Source: Blastococcus sp. LR1 (lineage in GTDB: Bacteria > Actinomycetota > Actinomycetes > Mycobacteriales > Geodermatophilaceae). Taken from it: a stretch of 64,000 nt of DNA. Positions 20,567 through 54,450 of this stretch are shown here, piece by piece (positions within the stretch are counted from its first letter, which is position 1; every line of letters begins with the position of its first letter). The stretch lies in NCBI RefSeq assembly GCF_020166105.1, contig NZ_JAIUJY010000003.1, positions 434,001 through 498,000 of the forward strand, read 5' to 3'. The notes below the pieces were generated by a model that was given only the letters and a program-made list of their open reading frames with translations, was not told the DNA's origin and did no database searches. Position numbers and translations under genes: made by a program.

Positions 20567-20583
20567 CTGGAGACGTTCTCCAG
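20567..20583. promoter_or_regulatory. CTGGAGA inverted-repeat operator
   Basis: CTGGAGACGTTCTCCAG has perfect 7-bp arms and a 3-bp centre. The half-site is the same as in the 11-bp direct repeats upstream of the Tad, type IV secretion and relaxase units. It lies 195 bp before the XRE gene, so it may serve autoregulation. Confidence 0.5.
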
Positions 20584-20777
20584 TGAATGGAAAGCCGTCA
20601 GGGGACCGGACCCCCTCCGCCGCCACGGTTGCTCAAAGGTCAGCCCTGGCGCTCGAACGCTCGTCGGCCGCGTACCCCGCGCCGGACGATGAGGTGTCGT
20701 GCGACCGAGGCGGACGGTGAGCGCTAGGGTCCTACGCCACGAACGGGTGTCCACCGAACGAGTGATGGGGGGCTGCC

Positions 20778-21230
20778 GTGGCGCGGCCGCTGCTTCGAGG
20801 CGATCGCCTGCAGGCCGCCCGGGAGTCCGCGGGATTGAGCCGGGACGACCTCGCCGAACGCCTCGAGCTGTCGAGCCCCGCAAGAGTCCGCGTGTGGGAG
20901 CTAGGCCTGGAGCGTCCGCGGCCCCGCTTCGTGCCCCGACTGGCCGCCGCGGTGGGAATCGATCCGCTGCACCTGCTCGACGTCGATCCCGACGATCCAC
21001 CGCTGGCGGCGCTCCGGCTGGCGGCCGGCCTGGCGACGAACGAGATGGGCGCACCGGGGGTGTCCGTCATGACGTACGTGCGACTGGAGGACGGCAGGCC
21101 CGGTACCGAGCCGACGGCGGACGCCGTCCATGCCGTGGCCGGATTGCTGGGTGTGGACGAGTCCCGCGTCCAGGCCGCGATCCGTCGCGCGCGCCGTGAC
21201 CACGCGCCCTTGGCGTCAACTGGAGGTTGA
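20778..21230 (+). CDS. XRE-family helix-turn-helix regulator of the element
   Basis: This 150-residue DNA-binding protein has an N-terminal Cro/CI-type fold: GDRLQAARESAGLSRDDLAE and then RVWELGLERPRPRFVPRLAAAV (residues 8-60). A second, weaker repeat of the same layout follows (residues 78-140), so it may contact two sites. The GTG 20778 follows a GGGGGG run. It immediately precedes the element's first operon, and its 3' end overlaps the first CTGGAGG repeat. I infer that it is the regulator of those repeats. Confidence 0.8.
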   Translation: MARPLLRGDRLQAARESAGLSRDDLAERLELSSPARVRVWELGLERPRPRFVPRLAAAVGIDPLHLLDVDPDDPPLAALRLAAGLATNEMGAPGVSVMTYVRLEDGRPGTEPTADAVHAVAGLLGVDESRVQAAIRRARRDHAPLASTGG

Positions 21231-21252
21231 CCGGAGGATTACTGGAGATCTG
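21220..21252. promoter_or_regulatory. three 11-bp direct repeats before the Tad operon
   Basis: CTGGAGGTTGA, CCGGAGGATTA and CTGGAGATCTG follow one another without gaps at 21220, 21231 and 21242. The 11-bp period puts each unit on the same face of the helix. The first overlaps the XRE stop codon, and the array ends 61 bp before the lipoprotein start. Confidence 0.6.
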
Positions 21253-21313
21253 GGGCTTTCCCTTCTGACGGTCTTTGGTGGTAATTTCCCGCAACCTCGT
21301 CCGGGAGGCGCCC

Positions 21314-22015
21314 GTGATCCGCAGGTCAGAGTCGCGTTGTGCGATGGCGGCTGGCCTCGGCGCGGTCCTGGAGACTGGACCGGCGAGCTCGCCGGCCGCG
21401 CTGCACGGCACCGCTTCGCGGGCGGTCGATGGGGTACGGGGCCGCATCGTCGCTCTCGCGTCGGTGCTGGCACTCGCCGCATGCGGAACGGACGGGGAAG
21501 CCACGGAGCAGACCTCGCCCCAGGCATCGGCCTCCGAGACCAGTGCGGCGTCCACCAGCTCGGGCCCGTCGATGAACCCTGACGAGGCGGCGGCCGCCGA
21601 CGCGGCGATGGCCGTCTACCGGGATGTGACTCGGCTGGTCCAGGATGCGCGCCGCGACCCGACGCAGGACTGGCTGCCGGCCTACGCGCAGCTGACCGCA
21701 GACCCCTATCGGTCCGCCGAGCTGCTCGAGATCTCGGCTCTCCGGGATCGCGGTATCGCCCACACCGGCGAGGTGATCCACACGCCCGACGTCTTCGCTG
21801 TCGACCTTGCTGGTGGCACAGACGGAACCCTCCGCACAGTCACGATCCAGGACTGCGTCGACACCCGAGACTTCCCGGCCACGGTCAAGGCCACTGGTGA
21901 CGTCGTGAGCGTCGATCGACCGCCGCACGTCGCCGTTGCCACGGTTGTCTTCTACCCGCCACCCGAGGACCGCTGGTTGGTCGCCACCGTCGACGTGCAG
22001 GACGAGACGTGCTGA
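21314..22015 (+). CDS. putative lipoprotein, first gene of Tad operon
   Basis: This 233-residue protein has a lipobox ALASVLALAAC (Cys at about residue 59), then a Ser/Thr/Ala/Gln-rich linker and a folded domain with an NTF2/VirB8-like look (DAAMAVYRDVTRLVQDARRD, then TVTIQDCVDTRDF). The GTG 21314 follows GGGAGG with five bases spacing, but it leaves about 40 residues before the hydrophobic segment, unusually long for a lipoprotein signal. ATG 21344 is an alternative. It overlaps the next gene by seven bases. Function is unknown; an extracellular, membrane-anchored role at the pilus is likely. Confidence 0.78.
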   Translation: MIRRSESRCAMAAGLGAVLETGPASSPAALHGTASRAVDGVRGRIVALASVLALAACGTDGEATEQTSPQASASETSAASTSSGPSMNPDEAAAADAAMAVYRDVTRLVQDARRDPTQDWLPAYAQLTADPYRSAELLEISALRDRGIAHTGEVIHTPDVFAVDLAGGTDGTLRTVTIQDCVDTRDFPATVKATGDVVSVDRPPHVAVATVVFYPPPEDRWLVATVDVQDETC

Positions 22016-22950
22016 CCCATTCCTGGGCGCGTGCGGCCGCCGGCGTCCTGGCGACCGTCCTCCTCCAGGTCCCGGCCGCGGTCGCCACCGCCGCGCCCCA
22101 GGAGATCTGCCTGCCCTCCGGCTTCTGCTACATCGAGGACATCCGGCCGGCCGTGCCCAGTTCGCCCTCCACCGTCCCCGCCCGGGCTGCGGCGCCGGCA
22201 CCGTCCGAGTGCACCTCGTCGAACGGTGCTGCGGTGCCCTGCTACCAGGACAACCTTGGCTGGTATGAGTCATCCAGCGGCTGCTACCTCAAGCTGATGG
22301 ACCCCCAACCCCCTCCCGGCTCGCCGCTGTGGGAAGGGCATACGCCAGGGGACGGCGGTGCCCTCTACATCGCCAACTGCGGTGCGGCGGACGGCGGCTC
22401 GCTCGGTTCCACGGCCACCGGGATCGCCTGGCGTCGCGGGCCACCGGCCGCAGTCATCGACCCCGAGGTCCTCGCACAGCGCGCCATCGCCGCCATGCAA
22501 CTGCAGCCGCCGCTACTGCGCACCGCACCCCCGCAGGCGTCGGCCAGCGGACTGGTCGGCCTCCCGATGTGGATGTGGACCGATCGCGCGGAGAACGTCT
22601 CCGGACCCATCACGCGCTCCGCTACCGAAGGGCCGGTCGCCGTCGAAGCGACCGGCGTGGTCTCCCGCATCGCCTGGGACATGGGCGACGGGACCACCGT
22701 CACCTGCGGCCTCGGAACGCCTCACTCCCCGGGTGCCGACGGCCCCTCCCCGGACTGCGGCCACACCTATGACCGCGCATCGGCCAACCACGTGCCCGGC
22801 GGCGGACCGTGGCCGATCACCGCTACGACCACGTGGACGGTCACCTGGTCCGGTGGAGGTCGCACCGGCACCGAAACGGTGCAGCTGTCCTCGACCGGCG
22901 AGCTCTTCGTCGGCGAGCTCCACGTGCTCAACCAGGCCGAGGAGCGCTGA
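22009..22950 (+). CDS. exported PKD-like protein
   Basis: This 313-residue protein has a clear signal peptide (AAAGVLATVLLQVPAAVATA, cleavage near residue 29). The N-terminal half has several Cys pairs (EICLPSGFCYIED, ECTSSNG, CYQDN, CYLK). A C-terminal beta-domain reads AWDMGDGTTVTCG, then CGHTYDR and ITATTTWTVTWSG, a PKD-like pattern. It probably forms a disulfide-bonded surface component of the pilus machine. Start GTG 22009 overlaps the lipoprotein gene and its stop shares a base with the SAF gene (TGATG). Confidence 0.8.
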   Translation: MLTHSWARAAAGVLATVLLQVPAAVATAAPQEICLPSGFCYIEDIRPAVPSSPSTVPARAAAPAPSECTSSNGAAVPCYQDNLGWYESSSGCYLKLMDPQPPPGSPLWEGHTPGDGGALYIANCGAADGGSLGSTATGIAWRRGPPAAVIDPEVLAQRAIAAMQLQPPLLRTAPPQASASGLVGLPMWMWTDRAENVSGPITRSATEGPVAVEATGVVSRIAWDMGDGTTVTCGLGTPHSPGADGPSPDCGHTYDRASANHVPGGGPWPITATTTWTVTWSGGGRTGTETVQLSSTGELFVGELHVLNQAEER

Positions 22951-23636: not shown

Positions 23637-23646
23637 GCGACCCACC

Positions 23647-28779: not shown

Positions 28780-29216
28780 CCAGCCAGCGACGCCGTCAGC
28801 AGTCGGACGCCGAGCGCGGCGCGATCGGCGTCTTCCTCGTCGTCCTCGTCCCCGGGCTGCTGCTCATCATCGGCCTGGCCGTCGACGGCGGCGCCAAGGT
28901 GGCCGCCACCCAGCGCGCCAACGCCATCGCCGACGAAGCCGCCCGGGCCGGCGGACAGGCGCTCGACGTCGCCGCTGCCCTCAGCGGGCAGGTCCGCGTG
29001 GATCCGGCCGCTGCGGTCGCCGCCGCGCAGGACTACCTCGACCGCAACGACGTGGCCGGGGCGGTGACCGTCGTCGACGGCGACACCCTGCAGGTGACCA
29101 CCACGATCTCCGAGCCCACGACCTTCCTCGGCCTGATCGGGATCTCCACGCTCACCGTGGAGGGCACCGGCACCGCCGACCTGATCACCGACCAGCGCGG
29201 GGGAGAGGGCCCATGA
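28776..29216 (+). CDS. TadG-like pilus protein
   Basis: This 146-residue protein begins with a basic tail, then ERGAIGVFLVVLVPGLLLII and GLAVDGGAKVAATQRANAIAD, the N-terminal Tad motif of TadG proteins. The usual von Willebrand domain is missing, so it is a short form. A beta-rich part follows (VTVVDGDTLQVTTTISEPTT). It overlaps the large LysM-BTAD gene by ATGA. Confidence 0.83.
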   Translation: MTSQRRRQQSDAERGAIGVFLVVLVPGLLLIIGLAVDGGAKVAATQRANAIADEAARAGGQALDVAAALSGQVRVDPAAAVAAAQDYLDRNDVAGAVTVVDGDTLQVTTTISEPTTFLGLIGISTLTVEGTGTADLITDQRGGEGP

Positions 29217-32200
29217 CCACACCACTGTCGGCGCAGGAGCTGCTGCGCCGGCTGATCGCCGGAGTCCTGCTGGCGGCCGCGGTCGCCGGCGTCCCGGTCG
29301 CACTCTGGGAGTTCGGCGGCGCCTACCTGCCCGACGAGCTGCCCTCCTGGGAACAGGTGACCACCGCGCTGAGCCGCCCGGACACCGGCGCGCTCTTCCT
29401 CGGCCTGCTCGTGGTCATCGGCTGGGTCGCGTGGGCCTGCTTCGCCCTCTCGGTGGCCGTCGAGCTCGCCAGCCAGCTGCGCGGCCTGCCACCGATGCGA
29501 CTGCCCGGCCTGGCGGCGCCGCAGCAGATGGCCGGCCTGCTCGTGGCTGCCGTCCTCGGTGTCGGCAGCGGACCGCTGCTGGCCGCTCCCGCCCTGGCCG
29601 GCCCCCCGATCGTGGCCGACCAGCCGGTCGGCCACGAGGAGCCGGCGCCAGCCCCTGCACCGCCCGTGGACACCCGGCCGACCGGGCCTGCAGCGGCCGG
29701 TCCCACGTACACCGTGGCCCCGCGCGACACCCTGGGTCGCATCGCCGCCCGCTACCTGGGCGACTGGACCCGGTTCGAGGAGATCCTCGAGCTCAACCGC
29801 GGCCGGCCCCAGCCCGACGGCGCGCTCCTCACCGACCCGGGGCTGATCCGCCCTGGCTGGACGCTGGTCCTTCCACCGGACGCACGCCTTCCCGAAGCCG
29901 GCGCGACCGCCGGCGAGGTGACGGTGCAGCCCGGCGACACCTTGGCCGACCTCGCCGAGCAGCACGGCCTGGAGCACTGGCAACCGATCTTCGACCTCAA
30001 TGCCGGCGGACCGCTGCCCGGCGGCGGTCGATTCACCGACCCCGACCTGATCCGCCCCGGGCAGGTTCTCGACCTCCCGCCGGCCGCCCCCGCGGCCGCC
30101 GCCTCTCCGCCGCCGACCGGTCCGGAGCCCCCGGCCGACGAGCCGGCGCCGGACGAGGACGAGCCGGCTGCCCCAGCGGAGCCCGCCCGGACCCCGGTCG
30201 CCTCGCCGACACCGGAAGGCATGCCCGAGCAATCGGAGCAGGCGGCGGTCGACGCCGACGCCGACGGTGGGGATGCCGCCGAGAGTCCGTCGGAGCTGGC
30301 GGCCGTGCTCGCCGGCAGCGGGGCGCTGCTCGCCGCAGGTGTGGGCGCCGCCTGGCTGACGCATCGCCGCCAGCGGCTACGCCGCCGCCGGCCCGGCCGA
30401 CGGCTGGCCCCCGTTCCGAGGACGCAGTCGGCCACCCAGACGGTCGTGGCATCGGCGGCCGACGAGGGCACGGCCGACTACGCCGCATTGGACCTGGCGC
30501 TGCGCGGCCTCGCCGTGCGGATCTCCGCCGATCCGGACGGGCGGCTCCCTGACGTCGTCGCCGCCCGACTCCAGGGCGGCCGGCTCGAGCTGCGTCTGCA
30601 CGCTCCGGCTGACCGTCCTCCGCCGGAACCGTGGATCGCGGACGACACCGGCCTCCGGTGGTCGGCACGGCTCGACCAGGACACCGGCGTCGATCCCCAG
30701 GTGGCCCGCACCCGCCTGGCGCCGTACCCGACTCTGGTCACCATCGGCACCGACACCGCAGGCCGCTGGCTGCTGGACGTGGAACGGCTCGGCGGGGTGT
30801 ACGTGACCGGACCGGCCGACCGTCGCGAGGACTTCGCCCGGCATGTGGCCGCCGAGCTGGCCGTCAACGGCTGGTCGGACCTGCTCACCGTTACGCCCGT
30901 CGGCTTCGGCGACGATCTGGTCGACCTGGCCCCCGGGAGGATCCGCCCGGTCGACAGCGCCGATGATGCCGGCCTGCATGCCGGTCTGGCGGAAGCCGCC
31001 GAGTCCGACGACGACGTGCTGGACGGGCGGCTACGGGCCGGAGCCGGAGACGGCTGGATGCCGCAGGTCGTGCTCGCCCCATCCCCGCCGGATCGGGACT
31101 GCGCACTGGCCGAGGCCGTCGCCGTCCTGCGGGCCCGCGAGCGACGCGGAACGGTCGCCCTGGTGCTCGGCGCCGAGCCGGAGCAGGTCAGCGACGAGTG
31201 GCTGCTCACGCTGACCGACGACGGGTCGCTGCTCGTCCCCGCACTCGGGCTGCGGCTGCCGGCGCCACAGCTCACCGTCCAGCAGGCCCGCGACATCGCC
31301 ACGCTGCTGGCCTTCGAGCGCGACTCCGAGGACGCCCCGATTCCCGCCGCCGACGGCGACCGCCCCTGGCAGGTGCACACCGACGCCGCCGGCGCGCTCC
31401 ACGGCGACCTGACCGGTCCGGACACCGCTGCACCACCGACCTCCGCCCCGTCCCCACGGCTCCGACGGGGCTCCATCACCGAGGCCGTCCCGCACTCGAC
31501 GCCACCCACGCCGACCGGCGCTCCTACGAGCGCGCGGACGTCGTGGACGACCAGCGGTGCTTCCGACGTTCCGGGGTCTGCAGCGCCGGCCGACGTACGC
31601 AGGGAGGTCGAGGACGACCTCGCCCAACTCGACCGCGATCTCGCCGACTGGTGGTCGCCGGACTGCGCGCGGCCGCGGCTGACCCTGCTCGGACCGGTCG
31701 CCCTGCGCGCGCACGGTGACGAGGCGGCCGTCGCCAGGTCCGGGTTGCGGCGCCGCTACGAGGAGACGGTCGCCTACCTCGCCACCCGCCCGCACGGAGC
31801 CACCGCCGACGAGGCCGCCACCGCGCTGCAGCCGGCCCGCGGCGGCAGGACCGACCCCGTCAGCGCCCGCGCCTACGTCCACCGGGTCGCCGCGGGCGCT
31901 CGCGCCTGGCTGGGCACCGACCCCGCCACCGGTCAGAAGCACCTCAGCTCCGGTCACCGCGGCCGCTACACGCTGACCGGCGTGCTCGTCGACGCCGACC
32001 TGTTCCGCCAGCTGCGCGCCCGGGCCGCAGTGCGCGGCGACGGCGGCCTGCCCGACCTGCTGGCCGCTCTGCGGCTGGTGTCCGGCCCGCCGTTCGCCCA
32101 ACGTCCAGCCGGCTACGAGTGGTTGGACGGCCTGGACCTGACGCTCACCGCAGCCGTCTGCGACGTCGCCCACCAGGTCGTCGCCACGGCACTCGCCGAC

Positions 32201-32440
32201 GGCGACCTGGCCGCCGCCGCAACCGCCTCGGCCACCGCCCTGCTCGTCGCGCCGGACGACGAGCAGGTACTGATCGACGCAATGTGGGTGGCCTTCCACC
32301 AGGGGCACCGCGCCGAGGCCGAGACCTACGTCGGGCGCATCGTGGCCGTCCACGACGGTGAGGACGAGATGGACCTGCCCATGAGCACGGCGGAGACCAT
32401 CAACCGCGCCCGCCGGCAGTTCCTCGACCGCGCGTCGTGA
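29213..32440 (+). CDS. membrane LysM-BTAD fusion protein
   Basis: This 1,075-residue protein has N-terminal transmembrane helices (LIAGVLLAAAVAGVPVALWE, then LGLLVVIGWVAWACFALSVA). Two LysM peptidoglycan-binding repeats follow at about residues 163-210 (YTVAPRDTLGRIAARYLGDW) and 235-285 (VTVQPGDTLADLAEQHGLEH), then an acidic Pro-rich linker, another helix near residue 362, a long cytoplasmic region, and a C-terminal BTAD-like domain (about 820-1075; PRLTLLGPVALRAHG and RYEETVAYLATRP). BTAD normally occurs in SARP activators. I infer a link between the cell wall and a cytoplasmic response at the pilus. The start overlaps the TadG-like stop. Confidence 0.87.
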   Translation: MTTPLSAQELLRRLIAGVLLAAAVAGVPVALWEFGGAYLPDELPSWEQVTTALSRPDTGALFLGLLVVIGWVAWACFALSVAVELASQLRGLPPMRLPGLAAPQQMAGLLVAAVLGVGSGPLLAAPALAGPPIVADQPVGHEEPAPAPAPPVDTRPTGPAAAGPTYTVAPRDTLGRIAARYLGDWTRFEEILELNRGRPQPDGALLTDPGLIRPGWTLVLPPDARLPEAGATAGEVTVQPGDTLADLAEQHGLEHWQPIFDLNAGGPLPGGGRFTDPDLIRPGQVLDLPPAAPAAAASPPPTGPEPPADEPAPDEDEPAAPAEPARTPVASPTPEGMPEQSEQAAVDADADGGDAAESPSELAAVLAGSGALLAAGVGAAWLTHRRQRLRRRRPGRRLAPVPRTQSATQTVVASAADEGTADYAALDLALRGLAVRISADPDGRLPDVVAARLQGGRLELRLHAPADRPPPEPWIADDTGLRWSARLDQDTGVDPQVARTRLAPYPTLVTIGTDTAGRWLLDVERLGGVYVTGPADRREDFARHVAAELAVNGWSDLLTVTPVGFGDDLVDLAPGRIRPVDSADDAGLHAGLAEAAESDDDVLDGRLRAGAGDGWMPQVVLAPSPPDRDCALAEAVAVLRARERRGTVALVLGAEPEQVSDEWLLTLTDDGSLLVPALGLRLPAPQLTVQQARDIATLLAFERDSEDAPIPAADGDRPWQVHTDAAGALHGDLTGPDTAAPPTSAPSPRLRRGSITEAVPHSTPPTPTGAPTSARTSWTTSGASDVPGSAAPADVRREVEDDLAQLDRDLADWWSPDCARPRLTLLGPVALRAHGDEAAVARSGLRRRYEETVAYLATRPHGATADEAATALQPARGGRTDPVSARAYVHRVAAGARAWLGTDPATGQKHLSSGHRGRYTLTGVLVDADLFRQLRARAAVRGDGGLPDLLAALRLVSGPPFAQRPAGYEWLDGLDLTLTAAVCDVAHQVVATALADGDLAAAATASATALLVAPDDEQVLIDAMWVAFHQGHRAEAETYVGRIVAVHDGEDEMDLPMSTAETINRARRQFLDRAS

Positions 32441-32577: not shown

Positions 32578-33066
32578 GTGACGCTGGTGAGCGTGGAGCC
32601 GATCGCCGCCGACCTCGATCTCGACGAGGTGGAGGCCGCGCTGCTGCATGCCGCGGTCGGTGACTACGCGGCCGAGGCTGCCGTGCTGCTGCTGGCCAAC
32701 GACGGGTACTGGCCGGCTCGGCTGTGCGCCGCCGGCTTGGTCACGATCGAAGCCGAGCCGGTCGGCGGTCAGCTGTGGGCGCGCGTCGAATGGCCCGAGC
32801 TCGACCCCGCCCTCGCCCAGGGACGCCTGCACGGCAGCCAGGAGGAGCTGGCGGTGCTCCGGGTGGCGGTCAGCCTCGCCGACGGACGACCGGTCGACCT
32901 CGCCGACGTGGCGGTGGCGCTGGGCCGCCGTGCGCTCGAGCTGGTGTTGGCCGCGCTGGCCCACGCCGCCGGCAGCCACGATCACCGTGACGCCTCTCCG
33001 GCCGGCTCCGGCGCCGGTGCCGGCGTGCGGCTCGGACCGCTGGTCGCCTGGCCGGTGCGGGACTGA
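32578..33066 (+). CDS. conserved accessory protein of the Tad operon
   Basis: This 162-residue acidic helical protein contains DLDEVEAALLHAAVGDYAAE, AAVLLLANDGYWPARLCAAG and a His-containing C-terminus (AHAAGSHDHRD). I recognise no family; the layout is that of a small cytoplasmic protein conserved beside actinobacterial conjugation genes. GTG 32578 follows GGAGG by six bases; GTG 32587 with AAGGAG is equally good. It ends the first long operon. Confidence 0.65.
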   Translation: MTLVSVEPIAADLDLDEVEAALLHAAVGDYAAEAAVLLLANDGYWPARLCAAGLVTIEAEPVGGQLWARVEWPELDPALAQGRLHGSQEELAVLRVAVSLADGRPVDLADVAVALGRRALELVLAALAHAAGSHDHRDASPAGSGAGAGVRLGPLVAWPVRD

Positions 33067-34047: not shown

Positions 34048-34180
34048 CCGGTAGCATCCGCCGGTCCACGGCACGGGTTCTCCGCTACTCCACCAGTCGT
34101 TCTCCGGCCCGAACGTCACCGCAAATGGGCAGACCGCGCCGGAGTGCCCGAGACCGCGGGAGGCCGCGAGCCTAGGTCGG

Positions 34181-34202
34181 CTGGAGAACTACTGGAGATC
34201 CG
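34181..34202. promoter_or_regulatory. two 11-bp direct repeats before the T4SS operon
   Basis: CTGGAGAACTA and CTGGAGATCCG lie head to tail at 34181 and 34192, the same unit and period as the array before the Tad operon. They end 17 bp before the first possible start of the DUF6668-like gene. This links both operons to one regulator. Confidence 0.6.
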
Positions 34203-34219
34203 GTCGCCACCGTCGGCGC

Positions 34220-35194
34220 ATGCAGACGACAACCCCGCATCGGGGATCGAGGCGCGGCCGGCCGAGCCGTGACGCGCCGCCGTCGGCGGCGACGGCGCCT
34301 CCCAGCCCCACCAATCCTCACCAGGCACGGTCGATGACCGTGCCTGCCATGCGCGCGGCCGTCGTGGCCATCCGCGCCGGTGTCTTCGACGACGTCACCG
34401 ATGACGTCCTCGCGCACGGCGACCAGGCGTTCGGGGCCGCAGTCCGCAGCCGTGCCGGCCAACCCGACTCACCCATCCAGTGGACGCGAGCGGGCGTCGG
34501 CGGCCGTGTCGTCCTCGTCGTGGCCGGGCACGCGGGGGCCGGCGCTTCCACCGTCGCGTTGGCGCTGGCCGAGGGGCTGGCGGAGGGCCGGCGCGTGCAG
34601 CTGGTCGACTACTCCGAGCCGGCCCGGTCGGGGTTGTCGGCGGCCCCGACCATCGAGCTGGGCACCGACAGCGCCGGGTGGCGGTGCGGTCGCCGCGGTC
34701 GACTCGATCTCGTCCGGCTCGCTCAGCACCCAGCCGACGGAGCGCTCCCACCGCTCCCGGAGACCGACGCGGACGCCACGGTGGTGGTGGACACGGGGTG
34801 GTCGACGACCGGTGCGCTGCTCTACTCGCCCAGGTCGCTCGTCGGCTGCGCTCTGGTGGTCGTCACCCGGGTCACGGTTCCAGCGGTCCGGCAGACCGAG
34901 CACGTCCTGGCAGCCGTCGGCGGGGACGCGGCGGTCGCCGCGGTGGGCCCGGCGCGGTGGCCACGGCTGGTAGAGGCCAGCTGCGGTCCCCGGCTCCGTG
35001 AGGCGCGGTCGACGGGCCAAGTGGTCCCGGTGCCGCTCGACCGGCGTCTGCAGATCGCCGGGCTGACCGGGGACCGGCTGCCGAAGCCGGTGGCCGCCGC
35101 CGGCCGGGCGCTGGCTGCGCTCGTGGTCCCGGCGGCGCCACCCCGGCACCGGCGCCGGGCAGCGCGGACCGGGCGGGCCGGGGCGACCCGATGA
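34220..35194 (+). CDS. P-loop ATPase-like protein, DUF6668-like
   Basis: This 324-residue protein (from the first ATG) has a P-loop-like sequence AGHAGAGASTVALALAEGL near residue 102 and the strand VQLVDYSEPA, so it is built like a MinD/ParA protein. The Walker A Lys is replaced, so activity is uncertain. The first 38 residues are Pro/Thr-rich and doubtful; ATG 34334 or 34349 may be the real start. A perfect 11-bp hairpin covers the 34334 ATG. It overlaps the pilin-like gene by ATGA and heads the T4SS operon. Confidence 0.7.
   Translation: MQTTTPHRGSRRGRPSRDAPPSAATAPPSPTNPHQARSMTVPAMRAAVVAIRAGVFDDVTDDVLAHGDQAFGAAVRSRAGQPDSPIQWTRAGVGGRVVLVVAGHAGAGASTVALALAEGLAEGRRVQLVDYSEPARSGLSAAPTIELGTDSAGWRCGRRGRLDLVRLAQHPADGALPPLPETDADATVVVDTGWSTTGALLYSPRSLVGCALVVVTRVTVPAVRQTEHVLAAVGGDAAVAAVGPARWPRLVEASCGPRLREARSTGQVVPVPLDRRLQIAGLTGDRLPKPVAAAGRALAALVVPAAPPRHRRRAARTGRAGATR
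34322..34346 (+). promoter_or_regulatory. perfect 11-bp hairpin over a candidate start codon
   Basis: CAGGCACGGTC and GACCGTGCCTG are exact inverted copies separated only by GAT. The loop contains the ATG at 34334. If that is the true start it would be buried in the stem, giving translational control; otherwise it is an attenuator hairpin in the leader. Confidence 0.45.
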
Positions 35195-45582: not shown

Positions 45583-46899
45583 GTGGTCACCACCCTGCGG
45601 CAGCTGCTCGACGACCTCACCGACCGAGCCGGTGCCCGCCCGGCGGTGGCGGCCATCGAGGACGTCAGCGGAGCACTGGCCCACCTCGGCCGGGCGCTGT
45701 CCGGGCTTGCCGAGGACGGGCTCACCCCCGGCGACAGCCACCGGCAGCGCAACGTCACCGCGCTCGCTGCCGCCTGCACGACCGCCGGCCGGCTGTGGCC
45801 GCACAGCGGCGGGCCGCTCACCGATCTCGCCGGCGCCGCCGCCGACCTCATCGGCCTCGACCGGTCGGTCATGGGCCGCTCCCACCGCTGGGCGGCCACC
45901 GTCGAGGTGGCCGAGGTCGCTGACCACTGCGCACGGCTCGGTCGCCGTCTGCTGCCGGAGGCGGCAGCTCCGGAGCTGGACGTCGTCCGCCAGTTGGCCG
46001 TCACCATCGAGCGTGACGCGCAGGCCGATCCGCCCACCGGCGCGGATTCCGTGGTGCTCGACCGTCTGGTTCCCCTGCCAGGACCGCCGTCCGGAGAGGC
46101 CGAGGTGACCGTCCTGGACGCCGCCGCCGGCCTCCTGGCCGCGCTCGACCGAGCACAGCGAGCCGACGACCTGACACTGCGGGACTTCCGTGCCGCCGTC
46201 GCCGCCGCCGAGCTCACCAGTCGCTACGCCGCCGTCGCGGCGGGCATGACCGGAAGGGACGCCGGACCGCTGCTGGTCGCCGGGCTCGCCTGGCAACACG
46301 CCGGCCGCGCCAGCATGGTCTTCCACGACGGACGCCGAGGAGCCCACGACGACCGCGGAGGCGTCGTCGCGTCGTCGCAGGCGCTCGTCCGCGCCTTGCG
46401 CAACGAGGTCGGCGCGCCCGCCGACATAGGGGAGCAGCACGACCGCAGGACTGCCGCGGACGCGGCAGCAGCGGTCCAGCAGGTCGCGAGCCACATGCCG
46501 GTTCTCGCCGACCACCTCACCATGGCGGTCGAGCGCTGGTCCCGCACCGGCCAGCTGTTCGCGAACGCCCGAGACCTGCCACGCATGGAGGCCATGCCCC
46601 AGGACCGGATCGAGGCGGTGATCGCAGGACGACACGTGCGGGCCAGCGGCGCCGACCTTGACGGTCTTCGGCAGGTCGTCGGTCGGGCCGCTGATCTGTC
46701 GACCGGACTGGCCGACGTGCTGCACCGAGCGGCCGGCACAGGGCCACGGGCGCAACAGCACCGAACCGACCGGCGCGACCGAGGAACGAAGGTGCCGGGC
46801 AACGCCGAGCGCGTGCTCAGTCGTGCTCACGCCGTCGACCGCGAGAGCGAGGGCATCCGGGTGCTCCACGCACCGCGACAGATCCCGCCGTCCCGATAG
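45583..46899 (+). CDS. large all-helical protein, last gene of T4SS operon
   Basis: This 438-residue protein is predicted to be entirely helical (TLRQLLDDLTDRAGARPAVA, LDAAAGLLAALDRAQRADDL, VASHMPVLADHLTMAVERWS). There is no signal peptide, membrane segment or catalytic motif I recognise. It starts GTG 45583, three bases after the previous stop. Similar proteins end conjugation operons in related actinobacteria, by my recollection; a structural or DNA-processing accessory role is a guess. Confidence 0.7.
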   Translation: MVTTLRQLLDDLTDRAGARPAVAAIEDVSGALAHLGRALSGLAEDGLTPGDSHRQRNVTALAAACTTAGRLWPHSGGPLTDLAGAAADLIGLDRSVMGRSHRWAATVEVAEVADHCARLGRRLLPEAAAPELDVVRQLAVTIERDAQADPPTGADSVVLDRLVPLPGPPSGEAEVTVLDAAAGLLAALDRAQRADDLTLRDFRAAVAAAELTSRYAAVAAGMTGRDAGPLLVAGLAWQHAGRASMVFHDGRRGAHDDRGGVVASSQALVRALRNEVGAPADIGEQHDRRTAADAAAAVQQVASHMPVLADHLTMAVERWSRTGQLFANARDLPRMEAMPQDRIEAVIAGRHVRASGADLDGLRQVVGRAADLSTGLADVLHRAAGTGPRAQQHRTDRRDRGTKVPGNAERVLSRAHAVDRESEGIRVLHAPRQIPPSR

Positions 46900-47466: not shown

Positions 47467-47506
47467 CTGACGCCTCCGCCGCCGGCCTGTTGGCCGGGGG
47501 CGTCAG
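47467..47506. terminator. strong two-part stem-loop between small genes
   Basis: CTGACGCC at 47467 pairs with GGCGTCAG at 47499, and CCGGCC at 47482 with GGCCGG at 47492 around TGTT. It lies 40 bp after the 30-residue gene and 41 bp before the next, fitting a terminator or a processing stem. Confidence 0.5.
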
Positions 47507-47546
47507 CGCCTACCCCTCCCCACGGCCGTCCCTGTTGGAGGACACC

Positions 47547-47687: not shown

Positions 47688-47739
47688 CAACTGCGGCGCG
47701 GGAGTCGGTTGACGCTGCCTCCCGCGCCGCGGCCCGGGC

Positions 47740-48558: not shown

Positions 48559-48902
48559 GGGTGCGGACGGTACTTCGGCGCCGCGACAACTTCCGCGCCT
48601 CAACAGAGGCCGAGGTACTCCTCAGCTAGGTGATCGGCGAACCCGCGGCGCAGCGCGGCGGCGCGGGCTGGGAGCAGATCGCCCTATTCCCCGGTGTACT
48701 TGAGACTTCGCGTGGGACTCCACCACCGAGGGCATCGCCGAGCGACTGGTCGCCGACGCCACAGCCGCCGCTCGAGCTTGGCTGGCGGGCGCGCCCCTCC
48801 ACTGACCCGTCCCTACGCCCCGGCCTGCGGGCCGGAGCGCCGCCTCAATACGGTTCCCGCCCTGCAGTCGGGTTCGACCTCTGATGTTCCTTCAGGGACC
48901 GA
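48559..48902. other. gene-free gap
   Basis: This 344-bp stretch lies between the TIGR02391-type gene and the relaxase stop. It may hold the promoter of the former. I see no supported gene, repeat or hairpin. Confidence 0.35.
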
Positions 48903-51900
48903 CTATCGGGCGAGATGCAGGTCGGGAGAGTTGGCTCTCGGCGGCTGTCCCGTATGGGCAGCCCGCGGAGGATCCTCGGTTGGGGGCATCGAGCGGGACG
49001 CCCGTGGGGGATCAGCCGTGGCTCTGCTAAGCGCCGAGGTGTTCGAGTCGGCGTCGAGCACGGCCCTGTGGACGGTGCCGGGTGGCACGCCAAGTGCCTC
49101 GGTGACCCGATCGATGTGCGCCAGCCACCGGCAGGGTGGCAGGGCAACGATGATCGCGCCGGCCTCGCGCAGTGCCGCATGAATGTCCAAAACGCTCCGC
49201 CTGCACAAAGCCAGCGTCACGCGGGCGTCGAGCAGGATGTCGGCGAGGCTGCATGAGGAGTCGATGGCCGTCCGCAGCCCGGTGGCGCCGTCGCGGTGGA
49301 CGAGGTCGGCGGGATCGAGCCCCTCGGGTAGGGCGAGGCGGCGCGGGGCGTCACCGCGGCTGGTGAGTTGCCAGTAGATGCGCTCGGCGGCGCGCTGCCC
49401 GGCGAGGTCGTTGTCGGTGGCCACGAGGATGCCGGGACCGTCGGTGCGGATGTAGCGGCCGAGGAGGTCGGCTTGCCGGTCGGTGAGGGCGGTGCCGAGA
49501 GTGGCAACGCCGACGGTCCGCCCGGCACCGGCCAGGGTGAGGGCGATGGCGTCCAGTGGTCCCTCGACGAGAGCCGGGGTGGCTCCAGCGGCGAGCGTGG
49601 ATCGGGTTTCGTGGAGCCCGAACAGGTGCTCGCCCTTGCGGTACAGGTCGGTACCCGGGGTGTTGAGGTATTTGGGTCCGGCGCGTCCGTCGTCGGCTGC
49701 GGTGGGGTGGCGGCGGGCGATGAAGCCGACGATCGCGCCATCGAGGTCGTGGATGGAAAAGGTGAGCCGGTCGCGGAACCGGTCGATCAGCGCGCCGGTG
49801 CGGGCGCGCTGGGCGAGGCCCGCGGTGACCAGTTCGGTATCGGTGGCGCCGAGGCCACGCAGGTGGTCGACGAGCGCCGTCCAGCCGGCCGAGGCGTAGC
49901 CGGGGGTGAAGCAAGCATCGGCGGTGAGGTCGGTGCCCAGCCGGTCGCGCAGGTAGCCCGGCGCCCAGGAGTCGGGGTAGTGGTCGGTGAAGAAGGCGGC
50001 GGTCTGGGTGTTGAGCTCGATGAGCCGATCGCGGCCGACCACGGCGGTGGCCCAGAAGTGCTGCTCGAGCAGGTAGTCCGCGTCGTCGGCGGCCTCGACC
50101 GCGCCGGTCAGGGTGAACGGGTCCGGCGTGAGGTACCGCGGCGGCGACGCCGGGGGATGGGTGTCGTAGTCAGGGTCGAACGGCGCGTCCTCGTCGCCGG
50201 GCGGCACGTCCGCCGGGTCGGCGGCGGTGGTTGGCGCGGGCACGGTCGGCAGCAGGTGCGCGTCGTCGGGTGGCTGCAGATCGGCCGGCAGCGGTTCGGG
50301 GTGCTGCGCGGGGGTTGGGTCGGTGAGGGCGGCGACCCGGAAGACGAGCGCTTCGGCCAGCCCGGTCACGTCGCCGGTCACCGCGGGTGGCAGCCCGGCG
50401 AATGCGGCGGTGAGCAGGTCGGCGGGGGACCAGCCGGTGCGGATGCCGTTGGCGACCGCGGCGACCAGCGCCGGCCATGCGGGGTCGGCCAGCACGCGTT
50501 CGGCCTGTTCGACGGGCAGCCGGCCCAGCAGGGTGGCGCACCAGTCCGGGCGCGGTCCGGCCGAGCCCGCCGCGGGCACGGTGGCCGGAGCGACGTGGGG
50601 CGACAGCCGCCACCACAGGGCCGCGGCGGGCAGGTCGTCGGGCAGCGGACGCCGTGCGGCGACGGCGGCGAGCATGCCGGCGGCATCGAGACCGGCGCGG
50701 TCGGCGGCGGCCAGCCGGTCGGCGAGGACCGGCCAGTGCTCGTCGCGTCGGATGCGGGGGTCGATGCCGTCGGCCAGCGCTGCCCACACCGAGCTGTCCC
50801 GGGCGGGAGCGGCGGCGGTCACCGCCTCGTCGAGTCGCGTCTGGGATCGGCGTTCCGCAGCCGGCCGCCGGGGCGGTCCGGTGGGGCGCCGGTCGCTGTC
50901 GGGAACGGCGAGTGCTGCGCGCCAGACGGCGAGGTCGGCCCGCAGTGCCTCGTGGTCCGGGCCCAGCAGTCGCTGAGCCCAGGTCGGTGCGGTGGCCGCG
51001 GTCATCTCGACGACGGCGGAGGCAACACGGGCCGCGCAGGTAGTGACGTGATCCGCGCGGGCGGCCAGGTAGGGACCCCACCGCGGATCGTCGGCCAGGG
51101 CCGCCGGGATGCCGGGCAGCCACGGCAGCGGGCCAGCGGGGCCGGACACGGGCAGCCGGTGGTCGAGGACGGCAGCCGGGTCACTCGCCGTCTCCAGTTC
51201 CCGCGCTTCGACCGTCGTCCTCAAGACGGCGACAGGGTCGGCACCGGTGAGCGCGAGCAGCGCCAGGTGCCCGCGCAGCGCCGGCCACGCCGGCGCGCTG
51301 GTCAGCCCCGGGTGCAGGCGCTCGGCGGCGTTCTCCAGTTCTTCTGCAGTCGCGGCACCCAGGCGGTGGTCGGCGGCGACGCGCAGCGCGTCGGCGTACC
51401 GGGTGGCGGCGGAGTGCAATTGCTCGGCCGGGTCGGCCAGCGCCCGGCGGGCGCCGGCCGCGGAGGTCTGGGCGCCGTCGCGGGCCAGCATGCCGGCCAG
51501 CAGGTCGGTGGCGGTGGGCGGGGACACGGCGGCGGGGGTGACGATGCTGTGCGGATCGCCGTCGCCGACGGTGGTCAGGTACAGGTGGTTGGCGGCGCGC
51601 CCGCGGGAGAGCGCGACGTAGAGCAGCTGCCGGGACTCGCCGCCGGTGAGCACGGTGTGGCAGACGTCGGCGGTGACGCCCTGGGCGCCGTGCACCGTGG
51701 TCGCGTAGCCGAGCTGCACGTGCTCGGCGACGTAGCCCGCCGGCAGGGTGATCCGCCGTCCGGTGCTGGTGTGGACGACGTCGAGGGCGCCGTCCCGGCC
51801 GACGGCCCGGACGGTGAAACGGTCACCGTTCTTCACCCACTCGGTGGCGGTGATCGGCAGCCGCCGGTTGTTGGCGCGGGTGATGACCGGGTCCCCGGCC

Positions 51901-54395
51901 CCGGCGCGGGTGCCGTCGGCCAGCTCGACCTCCGCGCCCGGGGAGGAGGCAACGCGGGCCAGCCGTTCGGCCCGCGCCCGCTGGTTCAGCTGTGTGACCA
52001 GGTCCCGGGTGGCGGCCAGCAGCAGTGCGTCCAGACCGCGGGCGGCGTCGGCGGCCCAGGCGGTGTAGGCATGCTCGGCGCAGGCAGCCAGGTCCCCGAC
52101 GTGCACGCGGCCGGAGTCCAGGTAGAAGCCCAGCCCGAGGGTGTCGCCGTCCCGGACGGCGACGGTGGCCGCGGCCTCGGCCGGGTCGGTGAAGCGCACC
52201 AACTGGGTCAGGGTGACCGCGCCGTGGGTGGCGGCGATCTCCGCCAGCACGCCGCCGGCGGCGACCGAGGTCAGCTGCTGGTGATCGCCGACCAGCCGCA
52301 CCGATCCACCCCGCCCCAGGACGTACTCGACGGCGCGCGCCAGCTCGCGGGTGCCGGCCATGCCGGCCTCATCGACGACCACCAGCGTGGTCGGCCCGAT
52401 GCCGGCCACCCAGTCGGGTGCCTGCCCGGCGTCGAGGCACCAAATGAGCTTGGCCAGCGTGTCGCACGGAGCCCTCACGGAGTCGCGCAGTCCGGCGGTG
52501 GCCACGGCGGAGGGCGCCAGGCCGAGCACCGTTCCGCCGCCGGCGGTCCAGGCGCGGGCCAGGGTCGCCAGCGCGGTCGTCTTGCCCGCGCCGGCCGGGG
52601 CGAGGGCCAGTTGCACCCGGGCGCCGCTGCCCGCGAGCTCGCGCACCAACTGCGCCTGGCCTGGATTGAGCTCGGCGCCGTTGGCGGTGGCTTCCAGCAG
52701 CGCCAGCTCCACCGTGGCCGGATCGGCACGTCGTCCGTCGCGGCGGCCGGCGGCTCCCAGGAGCAGCGCCTCGGCGTCCAGCACCGCCTCGTTGGTGTAG
52801 AGCCGGGCACCGGCGACGGTGTAGACGCTGGCCCCGTCCGAGCGGCGCATCTCCGCCGGCTCGACCACCGGATCCGACTCACCCAGCGGAACGGACAGGG
52901 CGGGGGAGAGCACCCCCTCGGTGACCCGGGTGACCGCGGCGTCCACGTCGTCCGGTGCCAGGGCGGCGGCCCGCACCACCCGCTCGGCCTCGGCGCGCAC
53001 GTGCCAGACCTGCCAGGTGGCCCGCGCAGCAGAGACGGTGTCCAGCACCCGGACGGCGGCCGACCGGACCCAGGCCTCGGTGATCCCCGGGTGCGGGGAT
53101 CCGCGCGCGCCCAGTACGCGGCCGAGCATCCGGATGATGCGGTCGGTGCCGCCGAGGACGGCGGCGGCCTCCCGCTGCCATGTGGCCCGCTGCTCGGCGA
53201 GCGAGCGAGGCTCGTGCTTGGGGCCGCGGGTCTCCAACGTCGCCTGCTGCGCCAGCGCGATCGCCTCCACCGCCGTGGGCGGCCGGCCGTGGTCGCGCTG
53301 GAAACCGTCGGCCAGCACCGCGCGGCGGACGTCGATGTCCTGACGCCGCGACGACCACGCCGTCAGGAGTCCCTCTTCCATGCCGGTGATCTCGCGCACC
53401 GTCCGCCGTCCCGGGGTGGGCCCAGGCCGGTCGGCGAACCGGAGCCCCAAGTGGGTGACCAGGTGCGCCTCCAGCCGGGTGTCGTAGCGCTCGGAGGCGG
53501 CGACGGCGGCCTTGTGCAGCACCCGCCCGTCCAGCGCCCGCCAGAGCCCGTCGCGGGTCTGCACTCTGTTGCTCACCGCCACGTGGCTGTGCAGATCGGG
53601 ATCGCCGGCGCGGGAGTCGCGGTGAGTGAACACCGCGGCGATCAACCCGGTGGTCTCCACCTGTCGCACCCCGTCGGTGCCCAGCCGGGTAAAGCACGCG
53701 TTCTCCTCCAGCCAGGCCAGGGCGTCGGCGACCGCGGCGGCGTGGGCGGCCTCGATCTGCTCGGCCACCGCCCGCGGGGCCAGTGCCCACAACGCCGATA
53801 CGGATTTGACGGGGGAGAAGGTGAGGTCGTAGCCGGCCACCGCCGTCGTCGCCGGCCGCGAGACCCGGGCAAGCAACCCTGAGAGCTCGCGGGCATCGTG
53901 CGGTGCGCGGCCGTAGGCCTCGGCGAACATGGCCCGGGCCAGGTCGCTGCGAATCCTCGCTCGGTCGTCGTCCGGAACCGGGGCTGTGGCCGGCTGTCCG
54001 CGGGCAGTGTTGAAGGCGGCGAACTCCTCCGCGCAGCGGGCTCGGAAGCCGTCGGCTCGAGGAGCGAAGACGTAGAAGGCCCGCCCCAGGGCTCCCACCG
54101 CCCGCGCCTCCTGAGGTGCCTGTCCCCGGGCCAGGGCCTCCTTCTCGAGCCGATCGGCGTCGGGATGGCGCCCCTCCCCGAAGAGCGACTTCATCTGCTC
54201 CTCGGTGACGGGCTGACCGGCGCTTACTCCGCCGACCCCGGCCAGGCCGTTGCCGGTCCACCTCCCCGGGGACTCTCCGCGCTGGGAGTAGTAGTCACCC
54301 AGGCCGGCGTGACCCCGCTCCGTCGCGTCGAACGCTGCCACCTGCCGCGTCAGGTACGTGTAGCCGTCCCCGGCCGTCAGCTTGTGCAGCGTCAT
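48903..54395 (-). CDS. MobF relaxase-helicase-primase
   Basis: This 1,830-residue enzyme has three modules. A TrwC-type relaxase (residues 1-330) starts MTLHKLTAGDGYTYLTRQVA and has the three-His motif HSHVAVSNRV near 267. A RecD-type helicase (about 560-960) has APAGAGKTT near 598 and VVDEAGMAG. A C-terminal primase-like part has the Toprim motifs LVEGPLDAIAL near 1607 and VATDNDLAGQRAA near 1657. It would nick oriT, unwind and lead the strand through the channel, then prime in the recipient. ATG 54395 is chosen by family start. A CTGGAGA repeat lies 49-55 bp upstream. Confidence 0.94.
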   Translation of the reverse strand: MTLHKLTAGDGYTYLTRQVAAFDATERGHAGLGDYYSQRGESPGRWTGNGLAGVGGVSAGQPVTEEQMKSLFGEGRHPDADRLEKEALARGQAPQEARAVGALGRAFYVFAPRADGFRARCAEEFAAFNTARGQPATAPVPDDDRARIRSDLARAMFAEAYGRAPHDARELSGLLARVSRPATTAVAGYDLTFSPVKSVSALWALAPRAVAEQIEAAHAAAVADALAWLEENACFTRLGTDGVRQVETTGLIAAVFTHRDSRAGDPDLHSHVAVSNRVQTRDGLWRALDGRVLHKAAVAASERYDTRLEAHLVTHLGLRFADRPGPTPGRRTVREITGMEEGLLTAWSSRRQDIDVRRAVLADGFQRDHGRPPTAVEAIALAQQATLETRGPKHEPRSLAEQRATWQREAAAVLGGTDRIIRMLGRVLGARGSPHPGITEAWVRSAAVRVLDTVSAARATWQVWHVRAEAERVVRAAALAPDDVDAAVTRVTEGVLSPALSVPLGESDPVVEPAEMRRSDGASVYTVAGARLYTNEAVLDAEALLLGAAGRRDGRRADPATVELALLEATANGAELNPGQAQLVRELAGSGARVQLALAPAGAGKTTALATLARAWTAGGGTVLGLAPSAVATAGLRDSVRAPCDTLAKLIWCLDAGQAPDWVAGIGPTTLVVVDEAGMAGTRELARAVEYVLGRGGSVRLVGDHQQLTSVAAGGVLAEIAATHGAVTLTQLVRFTDPAEAAATVAVRDGDTLGLGFYLDSGRVHVGDLAACAEHAYTAWAADAARGLDALLLAATRDLVTQLNQRARAERLARVASSPGAEVELADGTRAGAGDPVITRANNRRLPITATEWVKNGDRFTVRAVGRDGALDVVHTSTGRRITLPAGYVAEHVQLGYATTVHGAQGVTADVCHTVLTGGESRQLLYVALSRGRAANHLYLTTVGDGDPHSIVTPAAVSPPTATDLLAGMLARDGAQTSAAGARRALADPAEQLHSAATRYADALRVAADHRLGAATAEELENAAERLHPGLTSAPAWPALRGHLALLALTGADPVAVLRTTVEARELETASDPAAVLDHRLPVSGPAGPLPWLPGIPAALADDPRWGPYLAARADHVTTCAARVASAVVEMTAATAPTWAQRLLGPDHEALRADLAVWRAALAVPDSDRRPTGPPRRPAAERRSQTRLDEAVTAAAPARDSSVWAALADGIDPRIRRDEHWPVLADRLAAADRAGLDAAGMLAAVAARRPLPDDLPAAALWWRLSPHVAPATVPAAGSAGPRPDWCATLLGRLPVEQAERVLADPAWPALVAAVANGIRTGWSPADLLTAAFAGLPPAVTGDVTGLAEALVFRVAALTDPTPAQHPEPLPADLQPPDDAHLLPTVPAPTTAADPADVPPGDEDAPFDPDYDTHPPASPPRYLTPDPFTLTGAVEAADDADYLLEQHFWATAVVGRDRLIELNTQTAAFFTDHYPDSWAPGYLRDRLGTDLTADACFTPGYASAGWTALVDHLRGLGATDTELVTAGLAQRARTGALIDRFRDRLTFSIHDLDGAIVGFIARRHPTAADDGRAGPKYLNTPGTDLYRKGEHLFGLHETRSTLAAGATPALVEGPLDAIALTLAGAGRTVGVATLGTALTDRQADLLGRYIRTDGPGILVATDNDLAGQRAAERIYWQLTSRGDAPRRLALPEGLDPADLVHRDGATGLRTAIDSSCSLADILLDARVTLALCRRSVLDIHAALREAGAIIVALPPCRWLAHIDRVTEALGVPPGTVHRAVLDADSNTSALSRATADPPRASRSMPPTEDPPRAAHTGQPPRANSPDLHLAR

Positions 54396-54417
54396 CACGG
54401 CCGCGGACCGTAGGAGG

Positions 54418-54450
54418 GCGGACTCCACTACGGCTGCCGCACTTCTCCAG
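54418..54450. promoter_or_regulatory. CTGGAGA repeat before the relaxase gene
   Basis: On the relaxase strand CTGGAGAAGTG lies at 54450-54440, and the related GTGGAGTCCGC follows exactly two periods (22 bp) later at 54428-54418. TA precedes the first unit, as at both operons. This ties relaxase expression to the two secretion operons. Confidence 0.5.

Follow-up and report, generated by a model that had tools for sequence, protein, structure and literature searches.

A conjugative element of the soil actinobacterium Blastococcus sp. LR1 carries tandem 11-bp repeats before its pilus, secretion and DNA-processing genes, which raises the question of what these repeats do and which protein reads them. 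We examined a stretch of 64,000 nucleotides (hereafter the window), in which genes were called with a simple script from GC at codon positions. Integrase, relaxase, coupling protein and T4SS are encoded together beside a tRNA, identifying an integrative and conjugative element (ICE). Neither a search with exact 15-mers from C3:426001 to 474000 nor one of the window with 3 mismatches revealed a left copy of the tRNA-Leu end; the ICE may have lost its left end, or this may be short or lie elsewhere. Our main reading, to which we give a probability of about 45%, is that each array would be the operator of an activator with a SARP-like mode of binding, most likely a LysM protein of the ICE, on which other mobile elements would eavesdrop. 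The features concerned are as follows.

20552–20584, minus strand: decayed array containing an inverted pair (20567–20583); relatives have intact minus-strand arrays here
20778–21230, plus strand: XRE-family protein, absent from two array-bearing relatives
21219–21251, plus strand: array of the Tad promoter, three units ACTGGAGGTTG / ACCGGAGGATT / ACTGGAGATCT (starts 21219, 21230, 21241)
21282–21287, plus strand: TAATTT, putative −10 of the Tad operon, from alignment
21314–21316, plus strand: likely GTG start of the first Tad-operon gene, a conserved start with GGGAGG Shine-Dalgarno upstream
29213–32440, plus strand: LysM protein of about 1075 aa (likely start 29213), encoded where the Tad genes end; proposed activator
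34076–34108, minus strand: decayed three-unit array upstream of the T4SS array, a weak scan match
34180–34201, plus strand: array of the T4SS promoter, two units GCTGGAGAACT / ACTGGAGATCC (starts 34180, 34191)
34208–34213, plus strand: CACCGT, putative T4SS −10, read from the alignment
54419–54451, minus strand: relaxase array, ACTGGAGAAGT (54451–54441), a decayed middle unit and AGTGGAGTCCG (54429–54419)
54407–54412, minus strand: TACGGT, putative relaxase −10 (TANNGT in 10/10 upstream sequences)
54398–54396, minus strand: GTG start of the relaxase gene
C3:500159 (window-equivalent 66159), outside the window: strong integrase array, which begins 235 bp upstream of the integrase start

The tandem 11-bp arrays are a real feature of this DNA. 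Their unit is a 7-bp direct repeat of consensus CNGGAGR, with an A before the heptamer and a 4-bp spacer, and two or more such heptamers at an 11-bp period form the pattern of a SARP-type operator. Allowing at most 3 mismatches, the window has 5 tandem pairs where 0.24 would be expected, a count reached by 0 of 100 shuffles; the Tad array accounts for two overlapping matches and the T4SS array for a third, while one (51331–51350, minus strand) lies inside the relaxase gene and one at 810 is probably chance. The heptamer CTGGAGA by itself is weak evidence, with 15 matches against 8.4 expected and 1 of 100 shuffles reaching 15.

The initial annotation, which had placed a CTGGAGA repeat before every transcription unit of the element, was right about the two T4SS units and about the relaxase unit with a related one on the minus strand, between which a decayed unit lies. 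Its three Tad units are also there, with CTGGAGA present only in the third. "Every" proved too wide, since the cargo genes (about 54.9–65.6 kb) show no array at scan threshold among the matches listed. The perfect inverted pair at 20567–20583 does exist, but its reading as an XRE operator did not survive: relatives carry a direct minus-strand array at this position (ACTGGAGAAGTTCTGCAGG in L183 and ACTGGAGAAGAACTGGAGG in L190, among the matches listed), and we therefore read the palindrome as array decay. In L198–L201 and L254, this position faces, by eye, a gene for a xis-like HTH protein, which resembles the HTH_17 proteins of other loci, again by eye. Two arrays had gone unreported, the weak one at 34108–34076 and the strong one at C3:500159. 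The idea of a shared regulon of pilus, secretion and DNA processing gains support from the arrays, and the integrase would belong to it as well.

Alignments of relatives further bear out the expectation that the repeats are kept while their flanks diverge. In the window, the Tad array and the XRE gene overlap at the gene's end. Of 18 aligned relatives, 17 have an array at the Tad position, an imperfect one in the case of L187 and L191, and only L202 has none. The T4SS array is recognisable in 14/14 aligned sequences, window included, and a CNGGAGR-related heptamer stands 9 bp before the relaxase −10 in all 10 upstream sequences of the ICE group, window included, with the variants G[TC]GGAGT in four and CTGAAGG in L287. 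At the position of the weak array at 34076–34108, fuller arrays are present in L186, L187, L191, L193 and L195 (among the matches listed); the window's own minus-strand array, at 34108, showed no suitable −10.

Many of these arrays stand at a preferred distance from a −10-like element. Specifically, NANNNT follows the last heptamer after 8 or 9 bp in 36 of 117 non-redundant arrays, compared with 3.45% at random places in the same loci; the corresponding binomial P of 2.7e-24 is too small, because the promoters are homologous. At 45 other single spacings the mean was 2.0 of 117 arrays and the maximum 7, and 81 of the 117 have no −10 at 8–9 bp. The relaxase follows the pattern heptamer-9-TANNNT in 10/10 upstream sequences, and reading of the alignment places the T4SS repeats closely before the −10 in 14/14; in the window, the T4SS element CACCGT begins 9 bp after the last heptamer and ends 6 bp before an ATG at 34220, from which translation would be leaderless. 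The Tad array is exceptional: its putative −10, which sits inside the nearly invariant TGGTAATTTCCC, is 33 bp from the last heptamer in the window and 31–33 bp in the relatives measured, unlike in other arrays. Tad excepted, repeats at the −35 position at a short fixed distance from the −10 are what a SARP-type operator displays, and SARPs follow an 8-bp spacing rule. A sigma factor using the heptamer as its −35 was rejected, as the spacing to the −10 is 9 or 20 bp and not 16–18.

The motif is confined to one bacterial family. Using genome-wide totals added up from per-genome tables, we counted 346 matches to the strict pair ACNGGAGRNNNACNGGAGR and 28 to the pattern in reverse among 112 Geodermatophilaceae genomes; in 322 genomes outside the family the two counts were 39 and 31, which is chance level. 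In its own genome, all 7 strict matches lie in mobile elements, as had been anticipated; one is in a coding end. None of the places inspected showed an array at an ordinary housekeeping promoter. Some strict matches are coding, namely the ACTGGAGGCCTACCGGAGA type and those inside relaxase genes (the latter among the matches listed), and they are what speaks for chance or coding similarity as the explanation of the repeats. With the excess in the family, the fixed geometry and the conserved positions against it, that explanation is refuted for the promoter arrays, and we give it next to no weight overall.

A regulon private to this element, as the initial annotation had it, is not supported, for the same arrays precede xis/integrase genes of unrelated elements in related bacteria. 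One motif in both an ICE and unrelated islands is the configuration of eavesdropping of the AcaCD-SGI1 type. Among 20 hand-picked loci, 11 have an HTH_17-like (xis-like) gene near the arrays, and two of the proteins were confirmed by Pfam. The B/C loci were chosen by hand among the strict matches listed; in 32 of them, partial and partly overlapping (449 kb), six T4SS-region proteins of the ICE had no homolog at E≤1e-3, and B/C elements may therefore need a helper, unless they bring machinery of an unrelated kind. Two candidate binders were rejected. The p209 protein (32587–33066), common to the ICE and B-type elements and held by 59 of the 112 genomes, mismatches the strict arrays in its presence: genomes such as G075–G080 have p209 without strict arrays, and G011, G018 and G022 the reverse. 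HTH_17/xis proteins are of several different types by eye, and no match to HTH_17 (PF12728) falls in the ICE.

Which protein, then, reads the arrays? In the ICE core, no regulator other than the LysM protein is recognisable; further genes there could also encode regulators. The LysM protein has four hydrophobic segments, from which we infer a membrane anchor, together with LysM domains and a weakly SARP-like C-terminus. Its BTAD/TPR matches are weak, and that to BTAD (E 0.0063, 17.3 bits) is below the Pfam cut-off of 22.1; of 25 members of the LysM family, 9 give a BTAD match at E≤1 (best 5.4e-5), and Trans_reg_C had no match in the Pfam search of this family. The top PDB match of the C-terminal profile is a weak one to the N-terminal region of EmbR (E 0.026). 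At E≤0.01, BTAD finds only the LysM protein and a 172-aa frame in the window's own genome, both below the cut-off. No relative of the LysM C-terminus was found in viral contigs.

At least one strict array occurs in 32/32 genomes with a close LysM protein, and in genus g8 strict matches are restricted to G083, its sole genome with such a protein. In related ICEs the LysM C-terminus is 44–48% identical, the presumed recognition-helix stretch differs, and arrays are missing among the matches listed. These ICEs (20 loci and 11 extra stretches) have no 11-bp tandem repeat of any sequence, although such repeats may well be required by a binder of SARP type. Strict matches without a close LysM protein occur in 10 of 12 same-genus genomes and, in another genus, in G085, G086, G088 and G104, some of them coding or chance in both cases. 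G004, G007 and G021 have strict matches, but their BTAD matches are no more than weak (E from 3.6e-4 to 8e-4, above the cut-off by the rule of the search tool), the aligned part being mostly the second half, and G002 has strict matches and no BTAD match. Since the relatives were selected by their LysM gene (20 of 38 matches at ≥76% identity, plus 20 more distant), its presence in the 20 close ones proves nothing. Nor does G043 test the LysM reading, because the Tad genes of its contig, on which XRE and arrays are present, reach only to TadA.

The arrays found without a LysM protein make a host-encoded activator a strong rival, which we nonetheless hold to be rather unlikely. An OmpR/PhoB-type response regulator or other winged-helix protein would bind the arrays; several mobile elements of the family would have adopted it and would so all answer one host signal. 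OmpR-type regulators also bind direct repeats of about 11 bp, some genomes with strict matches have neither a close LysM protein nor XRE, and arrays in several element types, at chance level outside the family, are consistent with a host factor. Against it stand the lack of an identified plain housekeeping promoter with an array in the places inspected, the 7/7 matches within mobile elements in the own genome, the confinement to G083 in g8, and the array-free related ICEs (among the matches listed), many of which come from the same hosts. Alternatively, the arrays could be repressor sites or recombination/partition sites with no part in transcription activation, which we regard as improbable. 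Phased repeats are targets of ribbon-helix-helix or Xis-type proteins as well, an occupied −35 position is compatible with repression too, and a xis-like gene adjoins arrays in the 11 loci above; however, the weak −10 of the T4SS and relaxase promoters and their lack of an evident −35 are in line with activation, the att site lies far from the Tad, T4SS and relaxase arrays, and the ICE is without an HTH_17 match.

The initial annotation had favoured the XRE protein or another element regulator as the switch of the ICE; the second option survives, and the first now appears a poor one. For XRE speak threshold-level arrays that flank its gene at either end in 15 of 24 loci from relatives, its strong match in 30 of the 32 genomes that have a close LysM protein, and two more distant homologs outside the family (L282, L283) that adjoin xis or xis-int genes. 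However, XRE has no match in G040 at 1e-5 and only a weak one, on another contig, in G109, and the ICEs of both keep their arrays, which makes it a poor candidate; with arrays in other element types without XRE as well, it was rejected as sole regulator. L198 and L201 have arrays without an XRE gene, at odds with an XRE-operator system such as ImmR. Strict matches without a strong XRE match occur in 10 of 11 same-genus genomes (some coding or chance), and relatives about 47% identical have no adjacent 11-bp array in 6/6 loci (L240–L245). Moreover, XRE proteins usually bind inverted repeats. A single-sequence fold of the protein reached a mean pLDDT of 44; its relatives were absent from viral contigs, and a plasmid collection gave no match.

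In the activator reading that we prefer, an array of two or more direct repeats, often at the −35 place and 8–9 bp before a weak −10, would be bound in SARP-like fashion, with monomers lined up along one face of the DNA, one to each helical turn, and recruiting RNA polymerase. In the ICE family, the likeliest activator would be the LysM protein, encoded where the Tad genes end, with its LysM domains outside the cell and a winged-helix/BTAD-like C-terminus inside; it would switch on its own operon, T4SS, relaxase and integrase together. The same arrays before xis/integrase would let smaller elements excise when a helper ICE is active, eavesdropping as SGI1 does on AcaCD, and one activator may thus wake several mobile elements together. 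The full proposal, a membrane-anchored, cell-wall-sensing SARP as ICE master activator whose operator is common to the excision genes of unrelated elements, is tentative and somewhat doubtful.

If true, it would supply a sequence-level marker for the switch-on of T4SS-type ICEs in this actinobacterial family, link conjugation to an operator of antibiotic-regulator type, define a shared mobile-element regulon in Actinobacteria, and point to a function that LysM proteins from the ends of Tad operons may have. Waking of resident actinobacterial islands by a helper ICE would become testable, as with IncA/C plasmids in enterobacteria.

ToxR/CadC-type proteins are membrane-bound winged-helix activators, in which a membrane-tethered DNA-binding domain is combined with a sensor on the outside; the candidate LysM protein would share this arrangement, but its DNA-binding part is C-terminal and BTAD-like, and its sensors are LysM domains. 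The SetCD regulon of SXT/R391 ICEs, in the portions of its description considered, likewise has an element-encoded master activator of transfer as proposed here; LexA-like SetR control is a feature of that system, and SetCD is also used by islands. Excerpts of the SARP literature describe operators of heptameric direct repeats with spacers of at least 4 nt and a classical unit of 11 bp, generally overlapping the −35 (PMC10972967, PMC5930380). According to these excerpts, the Streptomyces operators of ActII-ORF4, DnrI, PimR and AfsR resemble our arrays in heptamers, 4-nt spacers, 11-bp period, two or three copies and a general overlap with the −35 of activated promoters; here, in contrast, the heptamer is CNGGAGR, the genes serve conjugation and excision and not antibiotics, and the candidate would be a membrane-anchored protein with LysM domains and a C-terminal SARP-like part. 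T4SS-type actinobacterial ICEs (PMC3218068) are likewise integrating conjugative elements with a T4SS, and the main text of that article contains none of the words Geodermatophilus, Blastococcus and activator. Among the papers listed in our literature search none describes such a system, the nearest being a GntR-like regulator of an actinomycete ICE (PMC8584621). The closest parallel to the proposed eavesdropping is AcaCD, which, in the sections of the report concerned, activates xis of unrelated islands (PMC4207636): with IncA/C plasmids, SGI1 and MGIVmi1, one motif likewise stands at transfer promoters and at the xis/mobilisation promoters of unrelated islands, whereas here the bacteria and the motif are others, and trans-activation is proposed by analogy.

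The 11-bp repeats, each a heptamer (consensus CNGGAGR) followed by a 4-bp spacer, are read at the three promoter places named in the initial annotation, ahead of the Tad, T4SS and relaxase operons of the conjugative element (ICE). The signal is their tandem layout and not the heptamer CTGGAGA by itself. The window has 5 tandem pairs with at most 3 mismatches where chance predicts 0.24, whereas for CTGGAGA alone the count is 15 and the expectation 8.4. A strict two-unit tandem pattern (strict pair) has seven matches in the bacterium's own genome, where B and C denote classes of smaller, unrelated mobile elements with arrays:

Tad array: two overlapping matches
ICE integrase: one match
Class C island, contig C2, 25236: coding end of a small gene
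Class C island, contig C2, 25376: before a xis-int pair
Class B element, contig C4: two matches

Judged by the neighboring genes, each of the seven belongs to a mobile element, in line with the earlier expectation that the motif would be confined to element promoters, but the match at C2:25236 is at a coding end. The T4SS array is one letter short of the strict pattern, and the relaxase array falls outside it because its middle unit has decayed. Directly after the T4SS start codon (~34234-34246) lies an inverted repeat, CCCCGCATCGGGG, that is kept or nearly so in several relatives.

The ICE has Tad genes and also encodes a T4SS, whose components include an SCO6880-family protein and a TraD/TraG-type coupling protein, and a TrwC relaxase. 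Further features are as follows (window-equivalent, window numbering extended beyond its end):

20778-21230, plus strand: XRE protein
29213-32440, plus strand: LysM protein
48903-54428, minus strand: single 1841-aa frame with TrwC relaxase, helicase, DnaG-N and Toprim (primase-like) domains
66159-66188, window-equivalent: integrase array of three units, ACCGGAGAAGT, ACTGGAGAGGC and a weak one
66198-66203, window-equivalent: -10-like AAGAGT, 9 bp after the integrase array (read by eye)
66394-67596, window-equivalent, beyond the window, plus strand: tyrosine integrase, adjoining tRNA-Leu(GAG)

A search for the left att copy of the ICE did not find one. Of the 54 integrase loci, 46 belong to records under the names Blastococcus, Geodermatophilus, Klenkia or Modestobacter. 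The cargo at ~54932-65552 (a DNA methylase, a ResIII-type helicase with a TnsA-like domain and an SMC/AAA protein) has no relative in the nine ICE stretches compared, and may be a defence island.

We searched 112 genomes of the family Geodermatophilaceae with the LysM protein C-terminus, which gave 38 matches of at least 76% identity in 32 genomes (close group) and a second, distant group mostly at 47-53%; 20 loci were fetched from each. The Tad-promoter array is present in 17 of 18 aligned close relatives: L202 lacks it, and L187 and L191 have it in imperfect form. The T4SS array occurs in all 14 aligned sequences, the window included. At the relaxase, a heptamer stands 9 bp ahead of TANNNT in 10/10 upstream sequences, counting the window and one near-identical to it. 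Of 31 sequences upstream of integrase relatives, 12 have a good pair, scoring at least 14 of 18 and located at 198-260 bp, 2 have a fair one and 17 have none. No such arrays were seen among the distant loci listed, nor in the five distant sequences upstream of the relaxase. As an unbiased test, identical 6-mers were counted by distance in non-coding DNA. At distance 11 the close group has 112, with CTCCAG and ACTGGA as top 6-mers; its other distances give 26-43 where not divisible by three and 104-142 where divisible. The distant group has 34 at distance 11 versus 36-56. In five related ICEs (L198, L199, L200, L201, L254), xis-like genes of at least three types, judged by eye, lie left of the arrays; from sequence comparison, such a gene seems to have been lost from our ICE. 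The array-free second ICE group (L203-L222, L240-L245) has a diverged LysM protein, and several of its members encode an XRE relative next to the relaxase gene.

Strict pairs are present in 67/112 family genomes, with 346 matches versus 28 for the reversed pattern (summed from the per-genome table). Among 397 sampled genomes of the order, 322 lie outside the family; these gave 39 strict versus 31 reversed matches, and the strict pair is therefore at chance level there. Arrays lie near a small HTH_17-like (AlpA/Xis-like) gene in 11 of 20 hand-picked loci, two of these proteins being confirmed as HTH_17. Class C elements are xis-int pairs, and some class B elements also encode ArdC, ParB or TrwC proteins. 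One B-type element encodes, beside its arrays, an ArdC protein that carries an IrrE/ImmA-like metallopeptidase domain (L147:5601-7082); C-type islands (L146, L149, also L143) encode near theirs a small protein whose cysteine motif resembles CGWCGGPITPRSRGPIPKWCS. Altogether, the arrays are real, conserved, placed at promoters and common to several element types. Exceptions are L135, whose matches are coding (ACTGGAGGCCTACCGGAGA type); L136, with a match within a relaxase gene; L150, where the match is at the end of an IS110-like gene; and L152, with a match near apparent purine genes that is probably due to chance.

NANNNT starts 8 or 9 bp after the last heptamer in 36 of 117 non-redundant arrays and is missing there from the other 81. 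At 45 other single spacings the mean count is 2.0 and the highest 7. Random positions within these loci show it at a rate of 3.45% (binomial P 2.7e-24, the true significance being weaker because the homologous promoters, treated as independent, are not). In-frame gaps in the alignment support ATG 34220 as the T4SS start, and a leaderless T4SS message is therefore likely. The Tad array lies farther upstream, 31-33 bp before TAATTT. These positions suggest an activator acting at or above -35.

As for the binder, the XRE protein favored by the initial annotation has a strong match in 30 of the 32 genomes with a close LysM protein. However, the ICEs of G040 and G109 keep their arrays without it (in G109 a single weak match lies on a different contig), which argues against this role. 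Judged from sequence, the LysM protein is the best activator candidate within the ICE. It combines LysM domains and four hydrophobic segments with a C-terminus that gives weak BTAD/TPR matches and, among PDB profile matches, fits best to EmbR, a SARP relative (E 0.026). Close and distant C-termini have a common framework but differ in the putative recognition-helix stretch (SARAYVHRVAAGAR versus GKTKVRQSISVVR). Of the 10 ICE stretches compared, 9 have the protein and the remaining one (G017) stops short of the gene, although this is weak evidence because the stretches were chosen by the LysM gene or XRE. Against it stand the arrays in genomes that lack it and the distant group without 11-bp repeats. 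The main rival to the LysM protein is a host-encoded activator that would bind the arrays. In a BTAD search of 21 genomes, many had strong matches, G004, G007 and G021 only weak ones, and G002 none. Further conserved ICE genes, e.g., 45583-46899, may also encode candidate regulators. The protein encoded 3' of the LysM gene (32587-33066) has no Pfam match; B-type elements encode relatives (~54% identical), and matches occur in 59 of 112 family genomes.

Full-text literature searches joining Geodermatophilaceae with "integrative conjugative element", or Geodermatophilus with promoter, direct repeats and mobile genetic elements, returned nothing, and no description of such arrays was found among the papers listed for SARP and conjugation, BTAD/LysM/Tad, Blastococcus/conjugative/Tad pilus or actinomycete ICEs. 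According to an excerpt of one study, SGI1 and MGIVmi1 have AcaCD sites before their xis and mobilisation genes, and their excision is triggered via AcaCD (PMC4207636). The arrays look like SARP operators. Excerpts of two papers describe the latter as heptamers in direct repeat, separated by at least 4 nt and classically forming an 11-bp unit (one helical turn); they generally overlap -35, and the monomers are thought to lie on the same face (PMC10972967, PMC5930380).
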